A stretch of 57,798 nucleotides of DNA from Candidatus Caenarcanum bioreactoricola. Lineage in GTDB: Bacteria > Cyanobacteriota > Vampirovibrionia > Caenarcaniphilales > Caenarcanaceae. The notes under the pieces were generated by a model, which ran no database searches, was not told where the DNA came from, and saw only the letters and a list, made by a program, of their open reading frames with translations. Below are positions 2,161-32,412 of this stretch, one piece after another. The stretch lies in contig MOYB01000002.1 of NCBI GenBank assembly GCA_001899385.1, positions 5,804 through 63,601 on the forward strand, given 5' to 3'. Each line of letters starts with the position of its first letter. The stretch's first letter is position 1. Both the position numbers and the translations under genes were made by a program.

Positions 2161-2670
2161 TTATAATAAAAATAATGACCAATCTTTTAAGAAAATTTTC
2201 TTTTGTAAAATATCTATTTTATCAATATATTGTTCATTAAAAGGTATAAGAAAATCATTAAATTCTTTTGATTTTATATTTAGGACAGGAGGACTAGGTA
2301 AGTTTTCTATAGATTTTATTTGACCTATTAAGAGATTTTTATCTATATAATCAAAGACTTCTAAATCAATTAATTCTTCGATTATATATTCTTCTTTACT
2401 TAGATCTTCTCGTTTAATGAGAATATTTTTATTAGATAAATTTTCTGCTTTTTCTATTGAATTAATTCCTGATAAAGAAATTATAGAGATATTATTTGAA
2501 ACTTTTTTTGCATCTTTAATGATATATTCAATCTCAGAATCTTCTTCTAATTTAATTTTTTTATTAAGAAGTTCACAGTTAGTCTCTAAAAATATTTTTA
2601 AATGCCCTTTTAGTCCGTGTGGTTTCAAACTTTTTCCTACACAAACCCATAATTTAAGATTTTCTTTCAT
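2161..2670 (-). CDS. rimM: Ribosome maturation factor RimM
   Basis: 16S rRNA processing factor that binds S19 and helps mature the 30S head. The 169-aa protein opens with the RimM signature VCVGKSLKPHGLKGHLKI, followed by the N-terminal beta-barrel; the C-terminal half resembles the PRC-barrel part (EELIDLEVFDYIDKNLLIG). The neighbour is tmk, 12 nt downstream. trmD, rplS and rpsP are not in the window. Sequence is divergent and Lys/Ile rich, as expected from the base composition. Confidence 0.9.
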   Translation of the reverse strand: MKENLKLWVCVGKSLKPHGLKGHLKIFLETNCELLNKKIKLEEDSEIEYIIKDAKKVSNNISIISLSGINSIEKAENLSNKNILIKREDLSKEEYIIEELIDLEVFDYIDKNLLIGQIKSIENLPSPPVLNIKSKEFNDFLIPFNEQYIDKIDILQKKIFLKDWSLFLL

Positions 2671-4151: not shown

Positions 4152-4236
4152 ATAAAGGCTCTTCTGGCATTTCAAATAGGATTTGTTATTTGTTTTATAT
4201 CAATGATTTTTGTATTTTTTTAAATAAACTATGAAT

Positions 4237-4626
4237 TCAAAACTCCCCCTTTAGGGGGCTGGGGGGCTCTATTCTTTCATCTTTTAATTTATTAAGTAAG
4301 CTAATAACTTCTATGCTTCTTTTTAAAGATTCATCAAGATAGAAGCTAATTGTAGGTGCAAATCTAAGTTTTAATCTGCGACAAAGTTCTCCTCTTATTG
4401 AAGAATTTGCAGATTCAAATATTTTTAAAATATCTTCTTTATTTTCTACTCCTAAAATACTTAAATAAAATCTAAAATGTTGATGTCCTCTTTCTGCTTT
4501 AACTTCTGTTATTGAAATTATTCCTTTAAAATTTTCTGCTTTGAATTCTCTAATAGATTTAGAGGCTATTATATCTGCTAATTCTCTTTTAGCACTTGAA
4601 ATAAGTCTTTCGTTTCTATCTACCAT
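4237..4626 (-). CDS. rbfA: Ribosome-binding factor A
   Basis: 129-aa cytosolic 30S assembly factor with a KH-like fold. Family features are the RNERLISSAKRELADII start and the RGELCRRLKLRFAPTISFYLDES block near residues 75-100. Gene order hydrolase-terC-rbfA with 4-nt and 1-nt junctions indicates one operon. The last nine residues, PPSPLKGEF, and the stop codon are encoded by a copy of the dispersed C/G hairpin repeat (4239-4268), so the repeat has become part of the reading frame. Confidence 0.9.
   Translation of the reverse strand: MVDRNERLISSAKRELADIIASKSIREFKAENFKGIISITEVKAERGHQHFRFYLSILGVENKEDILKIFESANSSIRGELCRRLKLRFAPTISFYLDESLKRSIEVISLLNKLKDERIEPPSPLKGEF
4239..4269 (-). repeat. Dispersed C/G hairpin repeat, copy 1 (inside rbfA 3' end)
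   Basis: Read on the minus strand: two C-runs, then TAAA, then a G-run, matching the layout of the copies at 14897, 19229, 23372, 30409 and 30502. CCCCCT and AGGGGG arms form a short G/C stem. This copy encodes the C-terminal residues and stop of rbfA and lies between two convergent transcription units. Confidence 0.85.
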
Positions 4627-11858: not shown

Positions 11859-14186
11859 ATGGTAATTTGTCATAATTTAGGATTCCCTCGCATAGGAGCT
11901 TTTAGAGAAACGAAATTTAATATAGAAAAATTCTGGAAAGGAGAAATCTCTAAACAAGAATTATTTGAAGTACTTACAAAAATAAGAAAAGATAATTGGT
12001 TTTTACAAAAAAATAAAGGCATTGATATTATCCCTTCAAATGATTTTAGCGCTTATGATCATGTTTTAGATACTATGTGTGTTTTAGGTGCTATTCCTGA
12101 AAGATATAAAAATATAGAAGATGATCTTGAGCAGTATTTCTCTATGGCAAGAGGCAACTCAAAGAAAAATCTTACTGCCCTTGAAATGACTAAATGGTTT
12201 GATACAAATTATCATTATCTTGTTCCTGAATTTAATAAAACACAGGAATTTAAACTTATATCAAAAAAACCTTTAAAAGAATTTCAAGAAGCAAAGGATT
12301 TAGGCATAATAACAAAGCCTGTAATACTTGGACCAATAAGCTTTTTACTCCTTGGTAAAAAAACAAGTGATTTTAGTCGTTTTGAATTGCTTGAAAAATT
12401 ATTGCCTGTTTATGTTCAATTATTATCTGAACTTTCTAATGCAGGTGCTGAATATATACAAATAGACGAACCTTATTTAGCTTTGGATCTTTGTGATAAT
12501 GCTAAATCTGCTTATTTGAAAACTTTTGAATATTTTACAAATAATCTTGGTTCAAGTTTTAAATCAAAGATTATTCTAGGAACTTACTTTGAAAGCATTG
12601 CTGAAAATATAAATCTTATAAATCAAAATCCTGTTTGGGATATTTTACATATCGATCTAGTCAGAGCTTCAGGACAACTAGATGATATACTTAAAGCATT
12701 ACCTTCAAATAAAAAACTTTCTGCTGGTTTAATAGATGGTAGAAATATTTGGAAAAATAATCTTCAAGCTTCTATAGATAAAGCAAATTATATAATTTCA
12801 AAAATAGGTAGTGATAATTTACTTTTAGCACCTTCTTGTTCTTTGATACATACTCCTGTTGATTTAAATAATGAAATAAAGTTGGATTCAAAAATTAAAA
12901 ATTGGATGGCTTATTCTGTACAAAAGCTTGAAGAACTAAAAGCTTTATGTGATTTTGCTAATAATAAAGCTTCTAAAGAATCAGAAGAATATTTGAATAA
13001 AAATATAGCCTCTAATCAAGATCGTAAAACTTCTGAACTTATACATATTGCTGAAGTAAAAGACCGTTGTAAAAACATAAATCCAAAAGATTTTCAAAGG
13101 AATCAACCTTTTAATCAAAGACAAAAAATCCAAAAACAAATACTTAATTTAGGGGATTTCCCTAGTACAACAATAGGTTCTTTCCCTCAAACTCAGGAAG
13201 TTAGAGCTTACCGTGCTAAATTTAAGAAAAATGAAATTTCAAAAGAAGAATATAATGATTTTCTTAAAAAAGAAACTGCTAATTGTGTTAAATGGCAAGA
13301 AGAAATAGGTTTAGATGTGCTTGTACATGGTGAATTTGAAAGAACAGACATGGTTGAGCATTTCTCTCAATTTTTAAGTGGATTTACTTCAAGTGCTAAT
13401 GGTTGGGTACAGTCTTATGGAAGCCGTTGCGTAAAACCTCCTATTATTTATGGGGATATTCAACGCAAAGAACCAATGACCCTTGAATGGATAACATATG
13501 CTCAATCTCTCACTAAAAAATATATGAAAGGTATGTTAACAGGACCTATTACTATATTGCAATGGTCTTTTGTTAGAGACGATCAGCCTAGAAAAGACAC
13601 TGCATTTCAAATTGCCTTTGCAATAAGAGATGAAGTTAAAGATCTTGAATTAGCCGGAATAAAAATAATACAAATAGATGAAGCAGCTTATCAGGAAGGT
13701 TCCCCTTTAAAGAAAAAACTTAAAGATGATTATTTTAAATGGGCATCAGAGGCATTTAGGCTTTCAGCATCTTGTGTTAAAGATGAAACTCAAATACATA
13801 CACATATGTGTTATTCTGAATTCAATCATATAATCAAAAACATAGCAGATATGGACGCAGATGTTATTACAATAGAAGCATCTCGTTCTAATATGGACTT
13901 GCTTGAAGCATTTAAGAATTTTGAATATCCAAATGAAATTGGACCAGGTATATATGATATTCATTCTCCAAGGGTGCCTAGTGTAGACGAAATGCTTGAT
14001 CTTTTAATGAAAGCTTTGAAGTATATTCCAAAAGAAAATCTTTGGGTAAATCCAGATTGTGGATTAAAGACTAGAGGTTGGGAAGAAACAAAACAAGCAC
14101 TTATTAATATGATTGAAGCAGGTAAGAAATTAAAAAGTCAAACTTCAGAGAAACTCATAAAGTGTAATTCCTGTTGCAACAGATAA
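11859..14186 (+). CDS. metE: Cobalamin-independent methionine synthase
   Basis: 775 aa. Transfers the methyl group of 5-methyl-THF-polyglutamate to homocysteine. N-terminal half starts GFPRIGAFRETKF; the catalytic C-terminal half begins near residue 435 (FPSTTIGSFPQT). Zinc ligands appear in HTHMCYSEF and in VNPDCGLKTRGW. The final about 15 residues (SEKLIKCNSCCNR) extend past the usual end and are read from the antisense of rlmB, a 42-nt convergent overlap. The 163-nt upstream spacer holds no recognisable riboswitch. This fits B12-independent methionine synthesis. Confidence 0.97.
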   Translation: MVICHNLGFPRIGAFRETKFNIEKFWKGEISKQELFEVLTKIRKDNWFLQKNKGIDIIPSNDFSAYDHVLDTMCVLGAIPERYKNIEDDLEQYFSMARGNSKKNLTALEMTKWFDTNYHYLVPEFNKTQEFKLISKKPLKEFQEAKDLGIITKPVILGPISFLLLGKKTSDFSRFELLEKLLPVYVQLLSELSNAGAEYIQIDEPYLALDLCDNAKSAYLKTFEYFTNNLGSSFKSKIILGTYFESIAENINLINQNPVWDILHIDLVRASGQLDDILKALPSNKKLSAGLIDGRNIWKNNLQASIDKANYIISKIGSDNLLLAPSCSLIHTPVDLNNEIKLDSKIKNWMAYSVQKLEELKALCDFANNKASKESEEYLNKNIASNQDRKTSELIHIAEVKDRCKNINPKDFQRNQPFNQRQKIQKQILNLGDFPSTTIGSFPQTQEVRAYRAKFKKNEISKEEYNDFLKKETANCVKWQEEIGLDVLVHGEFERTDMVEHFSQFLSGFTSSANGWVQSYGSRCVKPPIIYGDIQRKEPMTLEWITYAQSLTKKYMKGMLTGPITILQWSFVRDDQPRKDTAFQIAFAIRDEVKDLELAGIKIIQIDEAAYQEGSPLKKKLKDDYFKWASEAFRLSASCVKDETQIHTHMCYSEFNHIIKNIADMDADVITIEASRSNMDLLEAFKNFEYPNEIGPGIYDIHSPRVPSVDEMLDLLMKALKYIPKENLWVNPDCGLKTRGWEETKQALINMIEAGKKLKSQTSEKLIKCNSCCNR

Positions 14187-14882
14187 ATTCAAAGAATCAA
14201 AGTTCGAATTTTGTTCAATTTTAATTGATTGATGTTTTGTTTGTTGTATTTCTCGAGGAATGCCTATATCTTCTGCACCAAAAATAAATATATATGGAGA
14301 TTTTTCTTTGTTTTGTTCTTTCCAAAGCTTTAAAGGGACAGATTCTTGTCTATTTTCAAAACAAAGAATTTCCATTCCAGAACTATTAATTGCTTTTATT
14401 AAATTTTTAAGATTTTTAAATTCAGCAAATTTAAGATGAAAGATTCCACCTGCGCTTATTTTAGCAGTAGAAGGAATAAGTCTTGCAGGGCTTTCTATAG
14501 AATAAATTATACCTGCTACATTATTGAAAACAGCACAAGAACGAGCAATTGCTCCTAAATTGTGATTATCATTTATATTTGTTATAAGAATGAGATTTTT
14601 GTTAGTTTCACAAGCATTTAAAATTAATTCTTCAGGGGAAGTTTTTAAATAATTATTTATATCTTCTTTTAGTTCAAGTAAAAGTCCTTGAGGACTTTCA
14701 AATTCTTTAAGATTAAATTTTCTTCTTAAGCTTTCAGAATTAATTTCAAACTTTTCAATTTTTAAGTCTTTTAAATTAAGCTCTTCTAGTTTTTCTCGTC
14801 TTGTATAATAAAGTTTTAAAGCTAAATTTGGAAATTTCTTAAGTAATTCTTCGATTGCATGTTTTCCATAAATAAATTTCAT
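14145..14882 (-). CDS. rlmB: SpoU/TrmH-family rRNA 2'-O-methyltransferase (RlmB-like)
   Basis: 245 aa. N-terminal substrate-binding part (YGKHAIEELL) and C-terminal SPOUT domain with the three motifs NDNHNLGAIARS, FGAEDIGIPRE and NLSVATGITLYEFL, which make the knotted SAM site. Best fit is 23S rRNA Gm2251 methyltransferase, though RNA target is by homology. The SD AAGGAT (minus strand, 14890-14895) abuts the hairpin repeat copy at 14897. Its 3' end overlaps metE. Confidence 0.9.
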   Translation of the reverse strand: MKFIYGKHAIEELLKKFPNLALKLYYTRREKLEELNLKDLKIEKFEINSESLRRKFNLKEFESPQGLLLELKEDINNYLKTSPEELILNACETNKNLILITNINDNHNLGAIARSCAVFNNVAGIIYSIESPARLIPSTAKISAGGIFHLKFAEFKNLKNLIKAINSSGMEILCFENRQESVPLKLWKEQNKEKSPYIFIFGAEDIGIPREIQQTKHQSIKIEQNSNFDSLNLSVATGITLYEFL

Positions 14883-29159: not shown

Positions 29160-29753
29160 ATGAAAGAAAGAAAAGCTGAAATTTTTAGAAACACTGCTGA
29201 AACAGAAATCTCTGTAAAACTTAAATTAGAAAATCAAAGTTTTTGTGATTTAAATACAGGTGTTGGTTTCTTAGATCACATGTTAGAACAACTCAGCAGA
29301 CACGGCAATCTTAGTCTTCAAATAAATGTAAAACGTATTAAATCACCAGATCATCATCATGTAGTAGAAGATTGTGGAATAGTTTTAGGACAAGCTTTTC
29401 GTAAAGCAATAGAAGATCGTAAAGGTATTATTCGTTATGCTTCGGCTTCTATTCCTATGGACGAAAGTCTTGTTGATGTTAGCTTAGATTTAGCAGATAG
29501 AGCTTTTCTTTCTTATAATATAAAAACTGAAAATCCTAAAATAGGAGATTTTGAAGTTGAATTAGCAGAAGAATTTTGGAGAGCTTTTGTTAATAATTTT
29601 GGTTTAACACTTCATATAAGTAAAATTCGAGGAGAAAATAGTCATCATATAATTGAATCAAGCTTTAAAGCAGTAGCAGTAGCACTTAGAAATGCCATTA
29701 AATATGATCCAGATAAACCAAACACAATGCCTTCTACTAAAGAAATTTTATAA
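29160..29753 (+). CDS. hisB: Imidazoleglycerol-phosphate dehydratase
   Basis: 197 aa, single-function HisB of histidine synthesis. Metal-binding His repeats DHHHVVED and NSHHIIES and the GVGFLDHMLEQLSRHG start are diagnostic. It is alone; no other his gene is in view. The promoter of the duplicated unknown gene lies just 7 nt after its stop. Confidence 0.95.
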   Translation: MKERKAEIFRNTAETEISVKLKLENQSFCDLNTGVGFLDHMLEQLSRHGNLSLQINVKRIKSPDHHHVVEDCGIVLGQAFRKAIEDRKGIIRYASASIPMDESLVDVSLDLADRAFLSYNIKTENPKIGDFEVELAEEFWRAFVNNFGLTLHISKIRGENSHHIIESSFKAVAVALRNAIKYDPDKPNTMPSTKEIL

Positions 29754-29865
29754 ATAACACTTGACGTATTTATATATGTATATTATAATTCATGATATTT
29801 ATTAAAAATAATAACTTATGAATAATCCTTTAAAATTAAATTTAATTGTTAGAGCAAGAACTTCA
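29751..29865 (+). repeat. Direct repeat A: duplicated promoter plus 5' coding end, copy 1
   Basis: 115 nt matching 30592-30706 at 111 positions (four transitions, no gaps; offset 841). Includes promoter, leader, start codon and the first about 16 codons, so the duplication carried its regulatory region. Confidence 0.95.
29761..29789 (+). promoter_or_regulatory. Consensus promoter of duplicated gene, copy 1
   Basis: TTGACG (29761-29766), 17 nt, TATAAT (29784-29789). The leader to the ATG is about 22 nt and contains no Shine-Dalgarno, only A/T. Confidence 0.85.
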
Positions 29866-30384
29866 ACAAGAAATTTTAAGGCATCTAAAACTAAAAGAGA
29901 TCCTTCTGTACCGCCTCTTGAGCCGACTATGATAAGAATTAAAGATCCCAATAGACCAAATCATTTCGGCGATTTTGAAGCTGTAAGTTTGTGGCAACTT
30001 CAAGAGGCTTTAAAAGGACATGAAAGTTTAACATTTGAAGGAATAACAAAATTCGAAACTAAAGATAGAACTCATCAATTAATAGCTGAAATAGGTCATG
30101 GGGCACAAGGTGCACCTACTGAAAAAGAATGGCTTACATTAGTAAATGAAAAAGGGAAACCTATTACAAGCAGTTGGTGGAGATCCTCAAACAGAATTTA
30201 TATACTTACTGGTAATAAATTCCCTAGAACTGAGCGGACGGAAGATTCTTTTGAACTCCCTCATAACATTGGAACTATAAACTGGTCTTCAAGTAATGCA
30301 ACACAAACTCCTATAAGAGATATAGTTGATAGAGCAATTAATGCATATTACAAACTGTCAGCTAAGAAAAGCAGAGAAAAATAA
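29818..30384 (+). CDS. Unknown protein, 188 aa (duplicated family)
   Basis: Not recognised. Basic start MNNPLKLNLIVRARTS, then a likely mixed alpha/beta body with LEPTMIRI, SLWQLQEALKGHESLTFEGI, VNEKGKPI, RIYILTGNKFP and a C-terminal helix RAINAYYKLSAKK. No signal peptide or membrane helix. A shorter, broken paralogue follows at 30659 under an almost identical promoter. Context suggests a lineage-specific, well-transcribed gene; no function can be given. Confidence 0.75.
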   Translation: MNNPLKLNLIVRARTSTRNFKASKTKRDPSVPPLEPTMIRIKDPNRPNHFGDFEAVSLWQLQEALKGHESLTFEGITKFETKDRTHQLIAEIGHGAQGAPTEKEWLTLVNEKGKPITSSWWRSSNRIYILTGNKFPRTERTEDSFELPHNIGTINWSSSNATQTPIRDIVDRAINAYYKLSAKKSREK

Positions 30385-30408
30385 AATATAAATAACTTTC
30401 TTGCCTTG

Positions 30409-30440
30409 AGCCCCCCCCAATCCCCTAAAGGAGGAGTTTT
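30409..30440 (+). repeat. Dispersed C/G hairpin repeat, copy 5
   Basis: C-run, AAT, C-run, TAAA, GGAGG, AGTTTT. One mismatch in the stem compared with other copies. It lies 24 nt past the stop of the 188-aa gene and faces copy 6 in inverted orientation. Confidence 0.8.
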
Positions 30441-30501
30441 AAATTCGTAGTTTTGTGAGGTTTGACGCGGAAAGCCCATTATAAAAAATTATCTCTTGGA
30501 T

Positions 30502-30528
30502 TCCCCCCTTTAGGGGGTGAAGGGGGCT
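30502..30528 (-). repeat. Dispersed C/G hairpin repeat, copy 6
   Basis: Minus-strand orientation: G/C stem CCCCCTAAAGGGGGG with an upstream C-run. With copy 5 it forms a divergent-facing inverted pair about 60 nt apart, in the spacer between the two paralogues. Confidence 0.82.
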
Positions 30529-30591
30529 CCTAAGGGAAATTGAGTCTTCCCCATAAGCCCACTTAAAATCCTGAAGAGCCAAAATAAAAAA

Positions 30592-30706
30592 TAAATAGCA
30601 CTTGACGTATTTATGTATGTATATTATAATTCATGATATTTATTAAAAACAATAACTTATGAATAATCCTTTAAAATTAAATTCAATTGTTAGAGCAAGA
30701 ACTTCA
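30592..30706 (+). repeat. Direct repeat A, copy 2
   Basis: Second copy of the promoter/5' coding repeat, four transitions relative to 29751-29865. Confidence 0.95.
30602..30630 (+). promoter_or_regulatory. Consensus promoter of duplicated gene, copy 2
   Basis: TTGACG (30602-30607), 17 nt, TATAAT (30625-30630); both hexamers and spacing are kept although the gene it drives has in-frame stops. Confidence 0.85.
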
Positions 30707-31120
30707 CAAAGAATTCTTAAGGCAGATCCTCATAAAACAAAGCCTTCTCTTGAGCCGACTGCGATAAGAATTACCAGTGCTGAAGGTGCTCAGATTAATG
30801 CTGAAGCTGTACCTTTAAAAGAACTTATAAGAATCTTAAGAGAACATAACAGCTTAGAATTTGGTGCAGTAAAACAATTTAAATTTGGAGAAAAAGGCAG
30901 GCAACGAGTTCAATTCGGGACTCTTGTATTGGTAGATGAAAACGGAAACCCTATTAAAAAGAAATGGGAACTTTGAGTCTTTGTACTTACTGGCAATCAA
31001 TTTTCTGAAGCTAATAATAAACGTCTAAAAAATCCTTCTAAGCCTTCTAATGAGATTGAAAGGATACTTGAAGAAGAACTTGATGCGTATTATGTATAGT
31101 TAGCTAAGAAAAAAGCATAG
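30659..31120 (+). pseudogene. Second copy of the unknown family, interrupted by two in-frame stops
   Basis: An intact frame of 105 codons ends at TGA (30974-30976). The same frame then goes on with residues VFVLTGNQF, matching RIYILTGNKF of copy 1, and a C-terminal DAYYV, TAG (31097-31099), LAKKKA, TAG (31118-31120), matching AYYKLSAKK. So homology runs through two stops without any frameshift over about 460 nt. It is shorter inside than copy 1 (deleted GHGAQGA region). Simplest view: a young pseudogene, or a functional truncated 105-aa protein; stop read-through is a less likely alternative. Confidence 0.8.
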
Positions 31121-31138
31121 AAAAAGAAAAAATAAAAC

Positions 31139-31228: not shown

Positions 31229-31525
31229 ATGAATTTACCAGTAGTGGGTCCAATAAGTAGAGCTGTTAGTCATTACAATACTAATTTTCATGATATTCTT
31301 TCTAGAAAATATTATGGCGTAAAAGGTTTTGGAAAATGTTGCACTAAAGGCATTCCTGCTTTAGCAAAACAAACAGCAGCTTCAACTAAAGTCTTAGCAT
31401 CTAAGGCTTGGAATATGCCTTTAAAAGAACTTGCAGGACAAGGTATACAAGCTGTAGGAGAAGTTGCACAAGGATTTGGCAATGTAATTAGTTCTGCAGG
31501 AAGTAGATTATATGCTATTGCTTAA
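31229..31525 (+). CDS. Unknown small protein, 98 aa
   Basis: Not recognised. Mixed start with Tyr/His/Cys (SHYNTNFHDILSRKYYG and FGKCCTKG), then a Gly/Ala-rich, probably amphipathic C-terminal half (GIQAVGEVAQGFGNVISSAGS). No clear signal peptide. It has its own promoter and SD and ends 2 nt from the convergent sigma-factor gene. Its N-terminal part shares no obvious similarity with the neighbouring duplicated family. Confidence 0.65.
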   Translation: MNLPVVGPISRAVSHYNTNFHDILSRKYYGVKGFGKCCTKGIPALAKQTAASTKVLASKAWNMPLKELAGQGIQAVGEVAQGFGNVISSAGSRLYAIA

Positions 31526-31527
31526 TA

Positions 31528-32259
31528 TTAATTAAACTCAACATTATGTTTTTCAAGTTTATTTTTAAGAAGAGCAATTCCTCTATTATGAAGTTGACAA
31601 ACTCTTGATTCTGAAATTCCTAAAATCTTTGAAATTTCTTTCATATTTATTTTTCTAAAATGATAAAGACCTATAATTATTTTTTCTTTTTCTGGCAACT
31701 CTGCAATAGTTTTTTTAAGTATGTCAAATAATATATTTGCTTCACAATTTTCTTCAGGACTTGCTGCTAAATCCGCAACTTGTATTTGAAAATTATTATC
31801 TTCATCCCCAGTTCCTATACAAGCATCAAGAGATAATACAGTCATAGTTGTATTTTTTTGTATTTCTATTAATTCATTAAGATTTATATTTAAATAATTT
31901 GCTAATTCTTCATCTGAAGGTGTTCTTTGCAATCTGTTTTCAAGCTCAAGAATTGCATGACTAAGATCTTTAACTTTTTTTCTAGAATTTCTATTTAAAT
32001 AATCTATTGTTCTTAAATAATCATAAATTGCGCCTTTTATTCTTATATAAAGAAAAGATTTTAAAGAGCCTTTAGCTTCTTGATATTTATCAACAGCTTC
32101 TATTAAACCTATTACTCCATAACTAAATAAATCTTCTTCATTTATATTGCCATTAAAAGAAAGATATTTAAGTTTATCTACTATTTTTCTTACTAAATAT
32201 AGATTTTCTTTAATAAGACATTCTCTATTGGAAATATTTTTTGTGTTTTGAATTTTCAT
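31528..32259 (-). CDS. RNA polymerase sigma-70 family factor, FliA/WhiG-like
   Basis: 243 aa from the ATG (a TTG 15 codons upstream is possible). Region 2 shows LVRKIVDKL, EDLFSYGVIGLIEAVDKY and RIKGAIYDYLR; region 3 LENRLQRTPSDEELANYL; region 4 LPEKEKIIIGLYHFRKINMKEISKILGISESRVCQLHNRG. The GAxxDYLR block and length are FliA/WhiG/SigB-like. In motile bacteria it would drive late flagellar genes; here there is no flagellar neighbour and no FlgM. Confidence 0.9.
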   Translation of the reverse strand: MKIQNTKNISNRECLIKENLYLVRKIVDKLKYLSFNGNINEEDLFSYGVIGLIEAVDKYQEAKGSLKSFLYIRIKGAIYDYLRTIDYLNRNSRKKVKDLSHAILELENRLQRTPSDEELANYLNINLNELIEIQKNTTMTVLSLDACIGTGDEDNNFQIQVADLAASPEENCEANILFDILKKTIAELPEKEKIIIGLYHFRKINMKEISKILGISESRVCQLHNRGIALLKNKLEKHNVEFN

Positions 32260-32412
32260 GATTAATAAAATACAAAAGCTTGTCCTAAGATTAGTTTTAA
32301 ACAAATCCCAAAAGTTTTCATAAGTAATTTAGTTGATAAAAAAGCTATAATAGAGATTTCATTCAATGAATACTCTAATTTTTAAACGTTAAATTTTTTA
32401 AGAAAGGCTATT

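Follow-up and report, generated by a model that had tools for sequence, protein, structure and literature searches.

The window analysed here, a stretch of 57,798 nucleotides from Candidatus Caenarcanum bioreactoricola, lies within contig C12 of a 1.84 Mb draft genome that comprises 67 contigs and is 91% complete. Two related genes are arranged in tandem on its plus strand, flanked upstream of copy 1 by an imidazoleglycerol-phosphate dehydratase gene (29160-29753) and on the downstream side by a sigma-factor gene (31528-32304) that is encoded on the minus strand. Copy 1 (29818-30384) is an intact orphan gene that encodes 188 amino acids and ends in TAA. Copy 2 starts with an ATG at 30659 and is open for 105 codons to a TGA (30659-30976). 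In a pairwise BLASTP comparison, the two products share 40% identity over 120 amino acids with an E-value of about 1e-18. Directly downstream of copy 2, and before the sigma-factor gene, there is an orphan ORF of 98 amino acids (31229-31525) that has good coding statistics and for which no family match was found. Repeat and folding analyses also identified a dispersed repeat of about 148 bp on the plus strand between the two copies (30394-30541). It is predicted to fold into a strong, imperfect hairpin (-59 kcal/mol) with GC-rich inverted arms at 30412-30434 and 30504-30526; elsewhere in the genome the repeat recurs more than a dozen times, in part or in full (best copy 84%), and a 41-nt piece also occurs at 4226-4266.

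Homologues of copies 1 and 2 were detected neither in the taxonomic family, nor in the 381 other genomes of the class that were searched, nor in GTDB contigs, viral contigs, phages or plasmids; a single plasmid match with an E-value of 0.4 was too weak and was discounted. Copy 1 gave no usable match in Pfam, PHROGs, NCBIfam or the PDB, and a marginal PADLOC match to Cmr3 (E-value 0.0073) looks like chance. AlphaFold2 models had mean pLDDT values of 42 and 45, which are too low to use. In our best reading, the two copies belong to a lineage-restricted and fast-diverging gene family.

Reading frame of copy 2

The first in-frame stop of copy 2 is the TGA at 30974-30976. It is followed on the same strand by a tail of 40 codons (30977-31096) that is similar to copy 1 in frame 0, including the LTGN and AYY blocks, and then by a TAG at 31097-31099, beyond which the similarity to copy 1 goes on (xAKK). 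A further TAG is located at 31118-31120, followed by a TAA at 31133-31135. In total, codons 1-105 contain no stop and the next 52 codons contain three. The original prediction placed the end of the open frame and the first TAG correctly; it counted two in-frame stops, however, and missed the TAG at 31118-31120, although the interval that it described ends with this very codon. A translational restart within the tail was rejected because none of its 40 codons is an in-frame ATG, GTG or TTG.

Compared with copy 1, the tail reaches a local alignment score of 39 in frame 0 and of 18-25 in the five other frames, and 7 of 2000 shuffled sequences scored as well. Thus, the similarity to copy 1 that had been proposed to persist beyond the TGA does persist, and it does so in frame 0 only. 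The coding score of the 40 codons is 0.19 bits per codon, which exceeds that of 86% of intergenic windows, while the median for coding windows is 0.29; in other words, the tail is within the coding range and ranks in the lower half of genuine coding windows. When the DNA of the two copies was aligned without constraints and gap costs were kept stiff, we found that they differ by six interior indels of 9, 6, 36, 9, 6 and 45 nt, two of which are located after the TGA, while softer costs split these indels into smaller pieces. All six are multiples of three, and the earlier statement that no frameshift is needed is therefore correct as far as the frame is concerned, although indels are not absent. 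The amino acid identity between the copies is 32% before and 30% after the TGA (Fisher p=1). Moreover, when the body of copy 1 was allowed to drift neutrally in simulations to the observed divergence of 44%, only 0.25% of the runs were free of stops, which indicates that the frame was maintained. From the in-frame similarity of the tail together with the multiple-of-three indels, we infer that the tail was coding for most of the divergence of the two copies and that the TGA arose late, i.e. that the frame, including that of the tail, was under selection during most of the period after the two copies separated.

A comparison of dN/dS on the two sides of the TGA had been put forward as a way to recognise a plain pseudogene by an excess of non-synonymous change after the stop. 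Between copies 1 and 2, dN is 0.68 and dS 0.60 in the body before the TGA, and dN is 0.72 and dS 0.88 in the tail, so that dN/dS is close to 1 on either side of the stop. Thus, no such excess is present, and the comparison has little power because most of the divergence between the copies predates the stop.

Promoter and 5' module of the two copies

The two copies share a direct repeat of 158 nt on the plus strand that covers an extended promoter, the 5' UTR and the first ~30 codons (29750-29907 for copy 1 and 30591-30748 for copy 2). The promoter has the pattern TTGACG-17-TATAAT at 29761-29789 in copy 1 (TTGACG at 29761-29766, TATAAT at 29784-29789) and at 30602-30630 in copy 2 (TTGACG at 30602-30607, TATAAT at 30625-30630). 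This 29-nt pattern occurs twice in the window, at copies 1 and 2 only, and was not found in any of 100 shuffles. The 5' modules are ~89% identical over the 158 nt, while the bodies are ~32% identical, and the core from the -35 box to codon 15 is nearly identical. Among the codons for identical residues, none of 25 differs silently in codons 1-36, compared to 11 of 33 in the rest of the gene; for codons 1-36, dN is 0.23 and dS 0.02. Similarly, a single base differs between copies 1 and 2 in the spacer from the -10 box to the ATG, while other members of the family described below differ freely in this spacer. Because the silent sites in the 5' part are identical and the spacer is nearly so, this segment of copies 1 and 2 is best read as having been recently homogenised, on top of a family-wide retention of the promoter core. 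As originally predicted, both promoter hexamers are perfectly kept in copy 2; nevertheless, given the shared 5' module, their conservation is weak evidence for function. Within the module, codons 16-36 (29863-29925 and 30704-30757, respectively) show clustered replacement differences and no silent difference in codons for identical residues. This stretch, which is a small sample, may represent a diversifying patch.

Near-identical tandem 5' modules are hard to assemble and the genome is an incomplete 67-contig draft, so that an error of the assembly or the consensus, or a polymorphism between strains that entered the consensus, has to be considered as a source of the stops. However, the stops are in the diverged part of copy 2, where the two copies cannot be confused, and this explanation would require two or three errors that arose independently. 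We therefore regard this explanation as very improbable.

A family of genes with a common promoter and leader

The extended promoter and leader of copies 1 and 2 are also carried by four unlinked genes of this genome. Three of these additionally have the body motif described below and encode proteins of 171 amino acids (C34:135906-136418, promoter at C34:135848), 121 amino acids (C23:2664-3029, promoter region C23:3002-3075) and 164 amino acids (behind the promoter at C34:140957); in the fourth, which encodes 76 amino acids and follows the promoter at C34:102014-102044, the resemblance is confined to promoter and leader. In all six orphan genes, the spacer of the extended promoter is near-palindromic (TATATGYATATTATAAT), the leader is rich in K/R, and the start codon is at a nearly constant distance of 27-29 nt. 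This arrangement suggests that the six genes form a small co-regulated family. Four related genomes lack this promoter pattern. A further locus found in the promoter search, L008, was rejected as a family member; it contains an unrelated small gene pair, which we take to be a toxin-antitoxin module.

Pairwise BLAST comparisons between the bodies of the family members gave nothing significant outside of copies 1 and 2. For a 19-residue motif, AVxLxxLxxFLKEH..., each leave-one-out test placed the best window at the expected position; the corrected p values of 0.005-0.046 are optimistic because the motif was chosen by eye. Profile matches of A1 to its own rows are circular and were excluded as evidence of homology in favor of this leave-one-out test. 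Homology of the bodies beyond copies 1 and 2 is thus suggested by one motif and the shared leader.

Position of the TGA in the family

In an alignment of five members, the TGA of copy 2 occupies a column in which the four other members have R, K, K and K. It directly precedes a strand-like [YF][VI] segment that all four other members have kept. Because the TGA replaces a K/R residue immediately before a shared segment, it resembles a nonsense mutation rather than a natural C-terminus, and it is probably not the natural end of copy 2. A product of 105 amino acids would lack the [YF][VI] segment.

These data bear on the alternative that the 105-amino-acid protein is a working, shortened member of the family and that only the tail is dead. 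The lack of stops in codons 1-105 fits a short protein that is still translated, the promoter is intact, and the other members vary in length (121, 164, 171 and 188 amino acids). By contrast, the loss of a segment that is present in all four other aligned members argues against a working protein, and the tail still looks coding, so that the truncation would be young rather than an established design. On balance, we consider a working short protein unlikely, and favor the reading that copy 2 was truncated late by a nonsense mutation.

Genetic code, read-through and frameshifting

Among 43 long ORFs in the window, 36 end in TAA, six in TAG and one in TGA. The latter is an ORF of 245 amino acids on the minus strand (14145-14882), presumably encoding an RlmB-type methyltransferase; TGA also ends several short ORFs. 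RF2 is encoded in the genome, and its gene, prfB (L046, about 2510-2580, minus strand), contains a classic programmed +1 frameshift site, AAGGGACTGT CTT TGA A. The presence of RF2 with its typical CTT-TGA +1 site supports that TGA is a real stop in this organism and, together with the 245-amino-acid ORF, led us to reject an altered code with TGA as a sense codon. The original prediction reached the same conclusion from TGA ending other genes; this argument stands with the qualification that TGA is a rare stop, accounting for one of the 43 long ORFs.

It had also been considered that the stops of copy 2 are sometimes read through. If the TGA were read through at some level, a longer form extending to codon 146 could be used, and the first TAG (31097-31099) could itself end this form. 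The similarity and the frame kept by the tail would fit such a longer product, as would the infrequent use of TGA as a stop in this window. However, two further TAG codons follow the TGA, RF2 is present, and no other family member has a stop at this position. Furthermore, the region 3' of the TGA has no unusually stable fold that could act as a stimulatory structure (z 0.66) and TGA-G is not known to be a strong leaky context, which also counts against read-through. Thus, we found no positive evidence for read-through, and consider it highly unlikely that a longer form is used.

As in prfB, the stop of copy 2 is part of a CTT-TGA codon pair, and a programmed +1 frameshift could therefore be envisaged at this site, with GGGAA-CTT-TGA in copy 2 as the counterpart of AAGGGACTGT-CTT-TGA in prfB. 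However, the Shine-Dalgarno-like element of copy 2 is weak and its spacing differs from that in prfB. Moreover, the +1 frame of copy 2 ends after about 16 codons and scores 18 against copy 1, which is below the shuffle mean of 23, whereas frame 0 is similar. Unlike prfB, copy 2 thus has no conserved +1 product, and its similarity to copy 1 stays in frame 0. We consider frameshifting at copy 2 extremely unlikely. A late nonsense mutation remains our preferred explanation for the TGA.

Discussion

Based on the data reported here, we consider it likely that copy 2 is a paralogue that was truncated late by a nonsense mutation and that is now either a young pseudogene or a truncated allele. In the mechanism that we suggest, copy 2 would be an old and divergent tandem paralogue of an orphan family that gained the TGA once most of the divergence from copy 1 had taken place, leaving a young pseudogene or an allele that has lost roughly a quarter to a third of its length. 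Transcription probably goes on from the kept promoter; translation should halt at codon 105, and the product would be devoid of the last conserved segment, which is strand-like, and of the C-terminal tail, which is helix-like. Copy 2 may have lost its function. Gene conversion or recombination between the tandem copies would have homogenised a 5' segment of ~150-190 nt. This homogenisation, together with the family-wide retention of the extended promoter and leader, would explain why the promoter and 5' end look perfect. Thus, where tandem copies have homogenised their 5' modules, function cannot be read from an open frame with an intact promoter beside it.

Among the options in the original prediction, a very recent loss comes closest, since a late loss or shortening best fits a tail that was selected in frame and a TGA that replaces a K/R column. 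By contrast, the notion that such an arrangement is rare for a decaying gene was overstated: stops that arise by point mutation are ordinary in young pseudogenes, and kept promoters are normal. In particular, transcription of pseudogenes is widespread in two endosymbionts, with 74% still transcribed in one and 64% in the other (PMC13345370), and a kept promoter in copy 2 is therefore not unusual. As a stop-codon puzzle, copy 2 is ordinary, i.e. a duplicate that was hit late by a nonsense mutation, and nothing points to recoding.

The family with its shared promoter and leader, which is confined to a single genome within the class sample, represents a modest new lead. One could envisage a system of at least five or six dispersed genes with a shared promoter and a cationic N-terminal leader, bodies that diversify until they are no longer recognisable, and 5' modules that recombination homogenises, in which truncated copies serve as sequence reservoirs; we consider such a system quite improbable, and a role of truncated copies such as copy 2 as reservoirs is a conjecture.

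Copy 2 has clear parallels to duplicated (unprocessed) bacterial pseudogenes (PMC11078800): it is a tandem duplicate with premature stops that has kept its promoter and most of its sequence, it has a homologous intact sister in copy 1, and it carries a disabling change relative to the family, i.e. the TGA at the K/R column followed by two TAG codons. However, copy 2 has diverged strongly from copy 1, for the most part before the stop arose, and its 5' module is far more similar to copy 1 than the rest of the gene is. A second parallel is provided by the “pseudo-pseudogenes” of Salmonella (Feng et al. 2022, 10.1093/nar/gkac302, as referenced in PMC11078800). Copy 2 resembles them in combining a disrupted frame with kept expression signals, and a low-level product of copy 2 is conceivable on this analogy.
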